A DNA stretch of 24,431 nucleotides. It comes from a virus. The stretch covers positions 3,270 to 27,700 of the IMG/VR virus record IMGVR_UViG_3300030389_001758; one strand, 5' to 3'. Position numbers and translations under genes: made by a program. Below are positions 17,777 through 19,165 of the stretch, one piece after another. The notes below the pieces were generated by a model. That model did not search any database. It had not been told where the DNA came from and saw nothing but the letters and a program-made list of their open reading frames with translations. Within the stretch, counting starts at the first letter, position 1; the number at the start of each line of letters is the position of its first letter.

Positions 17777-18190
17777 TCTATCGGCTCTCGTTATTACTTG
17801 TTTGTACCAGCGAGAGTCCATCATCTGATTACCAGCTTCAATCCAATCACGACCATCAACTGCTTGTTTCATTTTGTGAAACCTGGACAACCTGGGTCTA
17901 CCCATATTGAACATCATATTAGCTATGATCTGTTGTGCTTCTTCTGGAAGATCATCGAAGTCATTGTAGAGTAAACGACATTCGCCAAGAGTTACTTGTA
18001 CATCCTGGTCAAATAATTCATTTACTCTTTCATCATCGATATGTGTGCCAACTTCCAACCCATGTTCAGGATCATCTTCTGTAATCAAATGACCTATGCC
18101 ACAAGTAGGTAAACCTAAATGATCTAAATAGATTTCATTCTTGACACCTTCATCAACCTTCAAAGTCTCTCGAAGCTGATCAATATCCAC
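17747..18190 (-). CDS. Endolysin, T4-type lysozyme
   Basis: A 147-residue muramidase of the T4 lysozyme family (164 residues in T4). The catalytic triad fits exactly: Glu14 in DEGVK, Asp23 in YLDHLG and Thr29 in LPTCGIGHL, with the same 9- and 6-residue spacings as E11-D20-T26 of T4. NMMFNMG is near 91-97. There is no signal peptide, so it needs a holin to reach the peptidoglycan. The start is GTG 18190, sharing one base with the upstream TAG; no strong Shine-Dalgarno site was seen, so coupling is likely. Confidence 0.9.
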   Translation of the reverse strand: MDIDQLRETLKVDEGVKNEIYLDHLGLPTCGIGHLITEDDPEHGLEVGTHIDDERVNELFDQDVQVTLGECRLLYNDFDDLPEEAQQIIANMMFNMGRPRLSRFHKMKQAVDGRDWIEAGNQMMDSRWYKQVITRADRLVRRMQAIT

Positions 18191-18327
18191 TATGCCATCG
18201 CTTTCTTTTTTTTCTTCTTGAACATTCTAAGCTTGGCAAAATCAGATGCTTCCATCTTCTTTTTATTGCCTGACATTTTGGCTATCTTTTTTTGTTTTGG
18301 AGAATAACTCCCATAGTTACCTGGCAT
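18190..18327 (-). CDS. Very basic small protein next to lysozyme
   Basis: A 45-residue frame from ATG 18327 to TAG. The start MPGNYGSYSPKQKK is followed by Lys-rich sequence and ends MFKKKKKKAMA. It is joined to the lysozyme start by TAGTG and follows the split gene by 4 nt, filling the space exactly. Short Lys-rich proteins like this are common in the lysis regions of marine podoviruses; the role is unknown. No membrane segment is visible. Confidence 0.6.
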   Translation of the reverse strand: MPGNYGSYSPKQKKIAKMSGNKKKMEASDFAKLRMFKKKKKKAMA

Positions 18328-18331
18328 AATT

Positions 18332-18487
18332 TTATCCTTTCTTTAATAAATCTTTATCTGCCTTTCTTGCTCCACCTTTACCTGAAACAAAACTTTTCAC
18401 ACGACCCATTGCCCAAGCATGAGCTGATGTTTTGGGTCTACTACCTGACGAATAATATGCACCTAGAATACCCCCCAAGGGGGTCAC
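18332..18487 (-). CDS. Small conserved gene, second part after hairpin segment
   Basis: A 51-residue frame from GTG 18487 to TAA. After a short lead encoded by the hairpin (MTPLGGIL) comes GAYYSSGSRPKTSAHAWAMG, then RVKSFVSGKGGARKADKDLL. That order resembles a family of small phage proteins with a GAY..SGSRP....W...RV.SF pattern (from memory). The GTG overlaps the upstream stop (GTGA), and GGAGGGG ends about 4 nt before it, so re-initiation is possible. Joined through CTG/CTA, both parts give a plausible 69-residue protein. Confidence 0.55.
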   Translation of the reverse strand: MTPLGGILGAYYSSGSRPKTSAHAWAMGRVKSFVSGKGGARKADKDLLKKG

Positions 18488-18494
18488 AGACCCC
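18467..18494 (-). promoter_or_regulatory. Alternative hairpins and 20-nt coding gap
   Basis: On the minus strand GGGGTC-TGT-GACCCC (18494-18480) forms a 6-bp stem that hides the ribosome site GGAGGGG and the GTG start. The overlapping CCCCC-TT-GGGGG (18483-18472) forms a second stem that excludes the first. The 20 nt from 18486 to 18467 begin with TGA and lie between CTG (18489-18487) and CTA (18466-18464). The GC content is far above that of its surroundings. Confidence 0.6.
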
Positions 18495-18564
18495 TCCGAT
18501 AAACTTTATTTAATGTAGCTTCACTAAATCGTGAAGCACCTGGAACACTACTAAATTTAGCCAT
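18484..18564 (-). CDS. Small conserved gene, first part before hairpin segment
   Basis: Reading from ATG 18564 gives 26 residues, ending NKVYRRGL and then TGA (18486-18484). The ATG shares a base with the upstream TAA (TAATG), as at many junctions here. The sequence stops in the middle of what looks like a conserved motif (VYRRG-x-GAY..SGSRP), whose second half is encoded 20 nt downstream in another frame. Either this is the first part of a bypassed or broken gene, or a leader peptide that couples translation to the second part. See the finding on 18332-18564. Confidence 0.55.
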   Translation of the reverse strand: MAKFSSVPGASRFSEATLNKVYRRGL

Positions 18565-18773
18565 TATCCTTTACTCCTTTGCTTGCTAATTCTATCCATC
18601 ATTGCTGGTGTAAGCTTTCCTTCTTTATATAACCTGGCAGTTCTTTTTATTTCTGCTTCTCTAGCTGAAGGGTTCTTTGCACCAGCTACATATTTTATTG
18701 GTACTCCTTTTTTAGTCTTAGGAACTTTAGCAAATTTTCTCTTAAAATTTTTTTTGGGATATGGTTTTTTCAT
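18564..18773 (-). CDS. Small basic conserved phage protein
   Basis: A 69-residue protein with a Lys/Arg-rich N-terminus (MKKPYPKKNFKRKFAK), then VPIKYVAGAKNPSAREAEIK (24-43) and a short helix pair RTARLYKEGKLTPAMMDRIS. I recall similar KYVAGAKNPSARE-type proteins in many marine phages; no function is established that I know of. It overlaps the holin by 4 nt and is joined to the split gene by TAATG. Confidence 0.6.
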   Translation of the reverse strand: MKKPYPKKNFKRKFAKVPKTKKGVPIKYVAGAKNPSAREAEIKRTARLYKEGKLTPAMMDRISKQRSKG

Positions 18774-19165
18774 TTAGTCAAACCTTTCTGCTTCTCATAG
18801 GTTCTAAGTGAACCGATACCAAGCATGCCACCAAGAACAGTCAAAAGTGTACCCATATCAAAACTTGGTAGTTCAGGTATTGTTACACCAGCCATAGCAC
18901 AACCAAATATTATAAGGTCTTTAAGGATAAAGTGGTATAGGAAAGCAATCGCACATGTCCAGCCAACTGCTGGTCTCCAGCCACCCTTGAATAAAGAACC
19001 TGATTGTGCTTCAGCTTTATTAAGTTCTATCTGAGCAAGGGCAAGTTGTTGAGCATGTTTCTCAGCCATCGTACTTAACTCAAAGGCGATCTTCTGCTTA
19101 GTATCTTTGTCTTCTATAAATTTTCCAAGTAGCTTAGTTGCTGGACCTATCAATGCTTGAATCAT
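18770..19165 (-). CDS. 3TM-type holin
   Basis: A 131-residue protein. An N-terminal hydrophobic/amphipathic segment (IQALIGPATKLLGKFI) is followed by a charged helix (18-52), then KGGWRPAVGWTCAIAFLYHF (60-79), ILKDLIIFGCAMAGV and LLTVLGGMLGIGSLRTYEK (106-124). The GGWRP..GW and GIGSLRTYEK motifs are typical of the three-TM phage holin family. It would make the membrane lesion that releases the lysozyme encoded three to four genes downstream. Start ATG 19165. Confidence 0.85.
   Translation of the reverse strand: MIQALIGPATKLLGKFIEDKDTKQKIAFELSTMAEKHAQQLALAQIELNKAEAQSGSLFKGGWRPAVGWTCAIAFLYHFILKDLIIFGCAMAGVTIPELPSFDMGTLLTVLGGMLGIGSLRTYEKQKGLTK

Follow-up and report, generated by a model that had tools for sequence, protein, structure and literature searches.

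Is the DUF5824 gene of this marine phage still decoded into one protein, given that a stop codon interrupts it and that its reading resumes only farther on? In the window (i.e., the whole 24,431-nt stretch of IMG/VR record IMGVR_UViG_3300030389_001758 that was analysed), the gene begins on the minus strand with ATG at 18564 and runs for 26 codons to CTG (18489-18487), directly after which stands TGA. Reading resumes 23 nt on, in another frame, at GGT (18463), which follows CTA (18466-18464); 20 nt lie between the two Leu codons, and 23 nt, including the proposed landing codon, would be skipped. The second half opens with GGT GCA TAT TAT (GAYYSSGSRP...), and its stop ends at 18332. The joined gene has 69 codons, and the break falls directly after VYRRGL. 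An interrupted gene of this kind, with VYRRGL followed by TGA and reading resumed past 20 nt, was described in the original prediction and is confirmed by the coordinates and by relatives. The best explanation, which we consider probable and which is inferred from sequence and not from experiment, is that one gene yields one protein by a programmed forward ribosome hop. The features concerned are given below, where haplotype counts refer to 11 broken haplotypes, i.e., six with a 23-nt gap, four with a 2-nt gap and one with a 1-nt gap.

18487..18564, minus strand: first part of the DUF5824 gene, 26 codons, MAKFSSVPGASRFSEATLNKVYRRGL; homologous to residues 1-26 of unbroken relatives
18493..18498, minus strand: internal Shine-Dalgarno-like CGGAGG, 3 nt before the proposed take-off codon
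18487..18489, minus strand: proposed take-off codon CTG (Leu26); CTN in 11 of 11 broken haplotypes
18484..18486, minus strand: stop TGA adjoining the take-off codon; a stop in all six 23-nt haplotypes
18470..18484, minus strand: predicted hairpin ACCCCC-TTG-GGGGGT in the skipped cassette; CCCC/GGGG kept in 6 of 6 23-nt haplotypes
18464..18486, minus strand: putatively bypassed 23-nt segment TGACCCCCTTGGGGGGTATTCTA, which contains the landing codon; 10 other contigs have the gap, with variants
18464..18466, minus strand: proposed landing codon CTA (Leu; not re-read); CTA or CTT in 6 of 6 23-nt haplotypes
18332..18463, minus strand: second part of the DUF5824 gene, GAYYSSGSRPKTSAHAW...KKG and stop
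18485..18487, minus strand: rival start GTG overlapping TGA (4-nt GTGA overlap); GTG in 4 of 11 broken haplotypes

The two parts belong together as a protein. The joined product scored 43.2 bits against PF19141 (DUF5824), above the cut-off of 25, and two unbroken relatives used for comparison scored 42.5 and 44.1 bits; the second half alone reached 24.7 bits, under the cut-off, and the first half alone had no Pfam match. A scan of IMG/VR with the joined protein returned at least 569 confirmed relatives, and VY[RKS]RGLGA[YF]Y was found in one ungapped piece in all of the best 80, which were kept. This figure does not depend on a motif pattern, but the loci were picked by similarity. The two scans for relatives gave at least 599 stretches, with 80 loci kept from each; because they yield only the best loci, the unbroken set is not a census. 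It should also be noted that the 85 unbroken haplotypes were gathered by a pattern demanding Y.RG. before and GA[YFW]Y..GSRP after the junction, so that the presence of RGLGA[YF]Y in 85 of 85 is partly built in. With the gap skipped, RGLGA[YF]Y is obtained in 11 of 11 broken haplotypes. R24, G25, L26, G27 and A28 do not vary among 30 relatives, and the junction falls inside a predicted helix (residues 15-31) in the model of the unbroken relative L015 (block pLDDT 91-92). Among GenBank phages, 16 records (pelagiphages, cyanophages, Roseobacter phages and others) contained a relative, each matched in a single piece, and none matched at the DNA level. In the nine distant records of these 16 that were checked residue by residue, the R-G-x-[GA]-A stretch is continuous (9 of 9), indels lie elsewhere and none occurs between residues 26 and 27. 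The earlier claim of a conserved 69-residue joined reading was borne out at the sequence level, both by its Pfam score and by the unbroken motif of the best relatives.

We scanned viral contigs for relatives in which the RGL stretch is immediately followed by a stop (TGA, TAA or TAG), and also for any gap of 23 nt. The patterns defining the broken set ([ND]KVY..RG[L/F] followed by a stop, or the motif with a 23-nt gap) were not tied to the letters of the cassette; because they were specific, genes with a different first part and a different gap length may have escaped them. A 23-nt gap was found in ten other viral contigs (L082, L086-L091, L163, L164 and L166), a 2-nt gap in five (L167-L171; CTT/TA/GGT) and a 1-nt gap in one (L185; CTT/T/GGC), all at the identical codon boundary. 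The 1-nt form rests on that single contig, where a base error could be involved and is not excluded. A scan for R-F-S-E-x-T-L-N-K-V-Y alone gave 16 stretches, namely the 15 known ones and L185, and 16 of 16 contigs with such a first part were broken at this junction; they bear 16 different data-set numbers, and one gene sequence is common to five of them (L086, L087, L088, L090 and L091). Including the window, there are 17 broken copies, every one at one codon boundary. One further match to the TAA pattern (L165) was an unrelated chance match and was dropped, and none of 13 pattern matches in bacterial genome contigs had a DUF5824 continuation. The alignment of homologues over the 20 nt, which had been proposed as a check, gave either an unbroken gene, or a 23-nt gap kept with variants, or a 2- or 1-nt gap.

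Four cassette sequences fill the 23-nt gap: TGACCCCCTTGGGGGGTATTCTA in the window and L082, TGACCCCTTTGGGGGATACACTT in L086, L087, L088, L090 and L091, TGACCCCTTCGGGGGATACACTT in L089, and TAACCCCTTCGGGGGATACACTT in L163, L164 and L166. All four keep the length, a stop, the CCCC and GGGG runs and a Leu codon at the end, while the loop, the spacer, third bases (also that of the landing codon) and the choice of stop change. The stop right after the take-off codon, already described for the window as TGA, holds in 6 of 6 23-nt haplotypes (TGA in four and TAA in two), and the landing codon CTA or CTT directly precedes GGT/GGA in all six. In the 2-nt forms (CTT TAG GTG CA, resuming GGT GCA) the stop is TAG in 4 of 4 haplotypes, and the 1-nt form (CTT TGG CGC A, resuming GGC GCA) has TGG, which is no stop. 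The cassette is single in the window (1 match, 0.00 expected), with no near-copy found elsewhere in it, and an exact 20-mer search hit the same gene in one viral contig (the records searched may lack those closest to the window). A mobile cassette in other genes was rejected on these two results.

The codon comparisons indicate purifying selection on both halves. When the window is compared with L096 (the same contig as L163), the 42 codons of the second half show 19 synonymous changes and 1 non-synonymous change, and the first half shows 11 and 5, respectively; between L096 and L164, both of which lack a standard start, the second half shows 4 synonymous and 0 non-synonymous changes. In all 55 pairs of broken haplotypes, pN of the second half is at most about 0.38 of pS. 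Three of the 85 unbroken rows, whose second part was under 126 nt, were left out of the codon comparison. An insertion that broke the gene, another alternative considered earlier, is contradicted by this selection on both halves; the TCT repeat cited for it does exist in the window and in L082 but is absent from the other three cassettes (GGACTG or GGACTA ... ACACTTGG).

Upstream of the junction, broken and unbroken genes differ. Of the broken haplotypes, 10 of 10 have GGAGG or AGGAG in the 15 nt that precede the Leu codon, versus 0 of 85 unbroken ones, and the 1-nt form L185 also has AGGAGG there. The hexamer is AGGAGG or CGGAGG in nine haplotypes, whereas L086 and L089 have the weaker AGGAGA; in 11 of 11, its distance to the Leu codon is 3 nt. 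Computed anti-Shine-Dalgarno energies average -10.0 kcal/mol in broken and -5.4 in unbroken haplotypes, but the two ranges overlap, L086 and L089 (-8.0) being no stronger than the best unbroken ones (to -8.7). According to the available part of a review (PMC5009743), +1 shifts have a spacing of 3 nt and -1 shifts one of 9-14 nt, and RF2 genes conserve the first base of CUU only where the shift is in use. The broken haplotypes likewise have a conserved first base, with CTN alone at this position, unlike the unbroken ones, 27 of 82 of which use TTA or TTG. Because the broken haplotypes are related, they are not independent trials. This RF2-like spacing and the relatives with 1- and 2-nt gaps at the same place go beyond what had been noted originally. 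A further difference is residue 15, which is Glu in all 11 broken haplotypes and in none of the 85 unbroken ones, although L185 was found by a pattern requiring it; Glu15 as part of a nascent-peptide signal is only a lead.

In the proposed hop, CUG would occupy the P site and UGA the A site at take-off. The AGGAGG/CGGAGG element would pair with 16S rRNA and the hairpin would stand at the A-site side, together weakening codon-anticodon pairing, so that the peptidyl-tRNA-Leu might detach at the stop or slow codon while the mRNA slides by 23 nt. The tRNA would then re-pair at CUA/CUU, translation would go on with Gly27, and the output would be the whole DUF5824 protein of 69 residues, along with some 26-residue product of termination at the stop. 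In the 2-nt relatives the same process would lead from CUU to UUA, past UAG, and in the single 1-nt contig from CUU to UUU, at UGG. The take-off and landing pairs are CTG-CTA, CTG-CTT and CTA-CTT over 23 nt, CTT-TTA over 2 nt and CTT-TTT over 1 nt, and a forward hop of peptidyl-tRNA-Leu is inferred to account for all three gap forms with one product. As far as the text of PMC5009743 is available, tRNA-Leu slips from CUU to UUA in Ty1 and from CUU to UUU in RF2; the 2- and 1-nt landings therefore have precedents as pairings. The claim of matched take-off and landing codons holds in that both are Leu codons with equal first and second bases, but not at the third base, which differs in 6 of 6 cases, and this limited match counts against the hop. 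That one tRNA reads both CUG and CUA is an assumption, because the host and its tRNAs are unknown. A phage-encoded tRNA aiding the shift was rejected, no tRNA gene being found in the window or in 15 loci of the contigs with broken copies (several are fragments, and L185 was outside the scan).

The hairpin of the window cassette has -10.6 kcal/mol when folded alone, and its stability does not exceed that of shuffles of the same letters (z -0.89; -0.89 to -1.60 among the cassettes, each folded alone). In a 44-nt context it is part of the best structure for only two of the four cassettes; in the window and L096 the C-run prefers pairing with the 5' G-run. At 18470-18495 of the window, GGGGUC of this 5' G-run pairs with GACCCC, which is mutually exclusive with the hairpin of the C-run and the 3' G-run. 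The alternative pairing recalls the refolding stem-loops of T4 gene 60 and might be relevant to sliding, for which there are no experimental data. No Rfam match was found over 18000-18900 of the window.

Bypassing like that of T4 gene 60, the reading preferred originally, remains the best supported by inference, with homologues that are unbroken or carry gaps of 23, 2 or 1 nt. The window shares with T4 gene 60, where 50 nt are bypassed, a stop directly after take-off, a proposed landing codon adjoining the resume codon and, on the inferred hop, a net frame change that gives one protein from two ORFs; T4 has a stem-loop at the take-off site, where the window has only the predicted hairpin described above (PMC11194080, PMC5009743, each as far as its text is available). 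Unlike in T4, the gap is 23 nt in the window and 2 or 1 nt in relatives, the tRNA would be tRNA-Leu and not tRNA-Gly, the codons match at two of three bases versus GGA-GGA, a strong Shine-Dalgarno-like element precedes take-off, and the gene is unrelated, with no nascent-peptide signal shown for it. The autoregulatory +1 frameshift of RF2 (prfB), as covered by the same partly available review (PMC5009743), is alike in the Shine-Dalgarno-like element 3 nt before CUN and a stop, and in the CUU_U found in the 2- and 1-nt forms. Of the features expected of an RF2-type site, the 3-nt spacing is met in 11 of 11 haplotypes, but CUU_U with a net shift of +1 is not met in the window (CTG_T, net +23), and only L185 has CTT_T and +1. 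The system differs further from RF2 in that the net shift is +23 (window) or +2, the stop is not fixed to UGA, a hairpin cassette is present, and the product is a phage protein of unknown function.

The alternative that we regard as possible but unlikely is a frameshift without long bypass, in which ribosomes shift by +2 (or -1) at the Leu/Gly codons and the cassette is translated as 7-8 residues, giving RRGL-TPLGGIL-GAYY or RRGSVTPLGGI-LGAYY at the junction (GLTPLGGILGAYYSSGSR for the +2 read-through product). Both 23 and 2 are 2 mod 3, as a common -1/+2 shift with a translated insert would give, which also counts against the hop; the cassette is open in the resumed frame, and the Gly codon before Leu can re-pair one base back, at its first two bases, in 8 of the 10 23- and 2-nt haplotypes. 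Such a product would, however, have 7-8 residues inserted inside the predicted helix, in a motif that is invariant in 30 relatives and without indels in the nine distant phages examined, and translating the cassette lowers the Pfam score from 43.2 to 32.5 or 28.9 bits. Codon changes in the translated cassette are also unlike those of the second half (3 non-synonymous to 2 synonymous versus 1 to 19 between the window and L096; Fisher p 0.016), although the ratio compared with the whole gene gave p 0.061. The 3-nt Shine-Dalgarno spacing is that of forward shifts in the available part of PMC5009743, a +2 slip in the 23-nt form would, by inference, land on GUG/AUA with a first-base mismatch to the Leu anticodon, and the single 1-nt form requires +1. 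Slippage by -1 was rejected for want of a usable heptamer: no X_XXY_YYZ site with an open -1 frame was found in the window, and none was usable in the haplotypes. Eight haplotypes (L086, L089, L096, L164, L122, L139, L169 and L170) have U_UUA_AAU in the zero frame 27 nt before the junction; the -1 frame meets TAA directly after it, and a slip there could yield a short truncated product.

Two translationally coupled genes, raised in the original prediction, we likewise regard as unlikely, and slightly more so. A 26-aa peptide would be made first, and ribosomes would re-initiate at the GTG that overlaps TGA behind GGAGG, giving (M)TPLGGILGAYYSSGSR in the window. The window does have a good restart site, CGGAGG followed by GTG with the GTGA overlap, which counts against the hop, and the GTG is kept in 4 of 11 broken haplotypes. 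Re-initiation would fail in the other seven because no ATG, GTG or TTG lies between the last stop and GGN: the TAA haplotypes have ATA at the GTG position, and the 2- and 1-nt forms have no ATG, GTG, TTG, ATT, ATC, ATA or CTG in the resumed frame before GGN. A conserved standard start at the junction is thus absent in 7 of 11, and coupled genes therefore cannot explain the whole set, remaining possible for the four TGA haplotypes, including the window. Second halves are conserved even in haplotypes without a start. Starting at the next standard start, in 11 of 11 an ATG that lies 18 codons inside the second part, would lose GAYYSSGSRP, and with two genes the motif that runs on without a break in 80 of the 80 best of at least 569 relatives would be divided.

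Decay of a broken gene through random indels is very improbable in our judgement: most relatives among the matches listed are unbroken and the gap length varies between lineages, but 17 broken copies share one codon boundary, the codon counts and the purifying selection on both halves disfavour it, and the Shine-Dalgarno-like element of broken copies is absent from unbroken ones. RNA-level correction by polymerase slippage on G/C runs, or else a sequencing error, for which the C5 and G6 runs of the window might speak, can be practically dismissed, given that runs are shorter in other haplotypes with the gap length unchanged, that the stop precedes the C-run, and that the break occurs in contigs of 16 different data-set numbers, error being still possible for L185. 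The homopolymer error suspected earlier, and assembly error with it, was rejected for the 23-nt form by the same gap in ten other contigs and for the 2-nt form by five contigs.

If the forward hop is accepted, the three gap lengths might reflect a standing launch site, an idea on which we remain evenly divided. The Shine-Dalgarno-like element 3 nt before CUN, perhaps with a nascent-peptide signal, would release the peptidyl-tRNA-Leu so well that 1, 2 or 23 nt before a Leu-like codon and Gly are skipped, and bypassing would have arisen step by step, through insertions at this site, out of an RF2-like frameshift. The candidate signal, RFSE[AS]TLNKVYRRGL, was found only in broken copies. If true, this would be a natural series linking frameshifting to bypassing.

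In an IQ-TREE analysis of 96 rows, the label "broken" requires at least two changes. The 23- and 2-nt rows group together without strong support (FastTree support 0.605), and L185 is placed among unbroken rows with starred support (97/98). Despite this placement, the first part of the 1-nt form (L185 3086-3300; RFSEATLNKVYRRGL) equals the protein of the window, and it is possible, to judge from these sequences, that this part and its Shine-Dalgarno-like element were exchanged together long ago. In the 2-nt forms L122, L139, L169 and L170, mean pS is 0.10 in the first part versus 0.52 in the second, and unbroken pairs of similar divergence show the opposite trend (N/C ratio 1.29); either recombination or an RNA-level signal upstream of the junction may underlie the low value. 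The terminase of L082 is 92 percent identical to that of the window, yet its broken gene differs by one silent base, which suggests recent exchange of this segment.

Few cases of natural programmed bypassing are known. The available part of the review names T4 gene 60, a yeast mitochondrial genome, a putative case in a Streptomyces phage and an unconfirmed one in Prevotella, and states that shorter counterparts have long been presumed to exist (PMC5009743). A phage short-gap case told in that text also concerns a phage gene with a Shine-Dalgarno sequence 5' of the gap, but in another gene and at another codon (UUA-linked). The byp elements of Magnusiomyces capitatus mitochondria are alike in that short inserts are skipped and imperfectly matched codons occur; as described there, they are mitochondrial, lie at 81 sites in many genes and are seemingly independent of mRNA context (PMC5009743), whereas the present family has one site in one gene family with a conserved context. 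Our literature search found no description of this case in titles or abstract openings. If the hop is real, ribosome jumping would gain a new natural family, in which 1, 2 or 23 bases are jumped. It would be a compact comparative case, in which a 23-nt cassette has natural variants of stop, loop, take-off and landing codon, and the sister genes shifting by 2 or 1 nt at the same codon add to that value; the relation between Shine-Dalgarno-driven frameshifting and longer bypassing could be tested with naturally occurring stretches some 60 nt long. In marine phages, automatic gene prediction would then report such genes in pieces or cut short.

In the window the gene order is holin, a 69-aa gene, the DUF5824 gene, a 45-aa gene and lysozyme, and among cultured phages Methylophilales phage MEP301 has the nearest terminase (66 percent). 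As to the function of DUF5824, a literature search found no paper containing this word, and there was no solved relative and no PDB fold match (best E 4.1). DUF5824-like stretches also occur within longer proteins: in Roseobacter phage CRP-831 (L160 1578-4201), one is embedded in a CDS annotated as major capsid protein and about 974 codons long, and in HTVC008M (L187), another is found close to the end of a CDS of some 596 codons.
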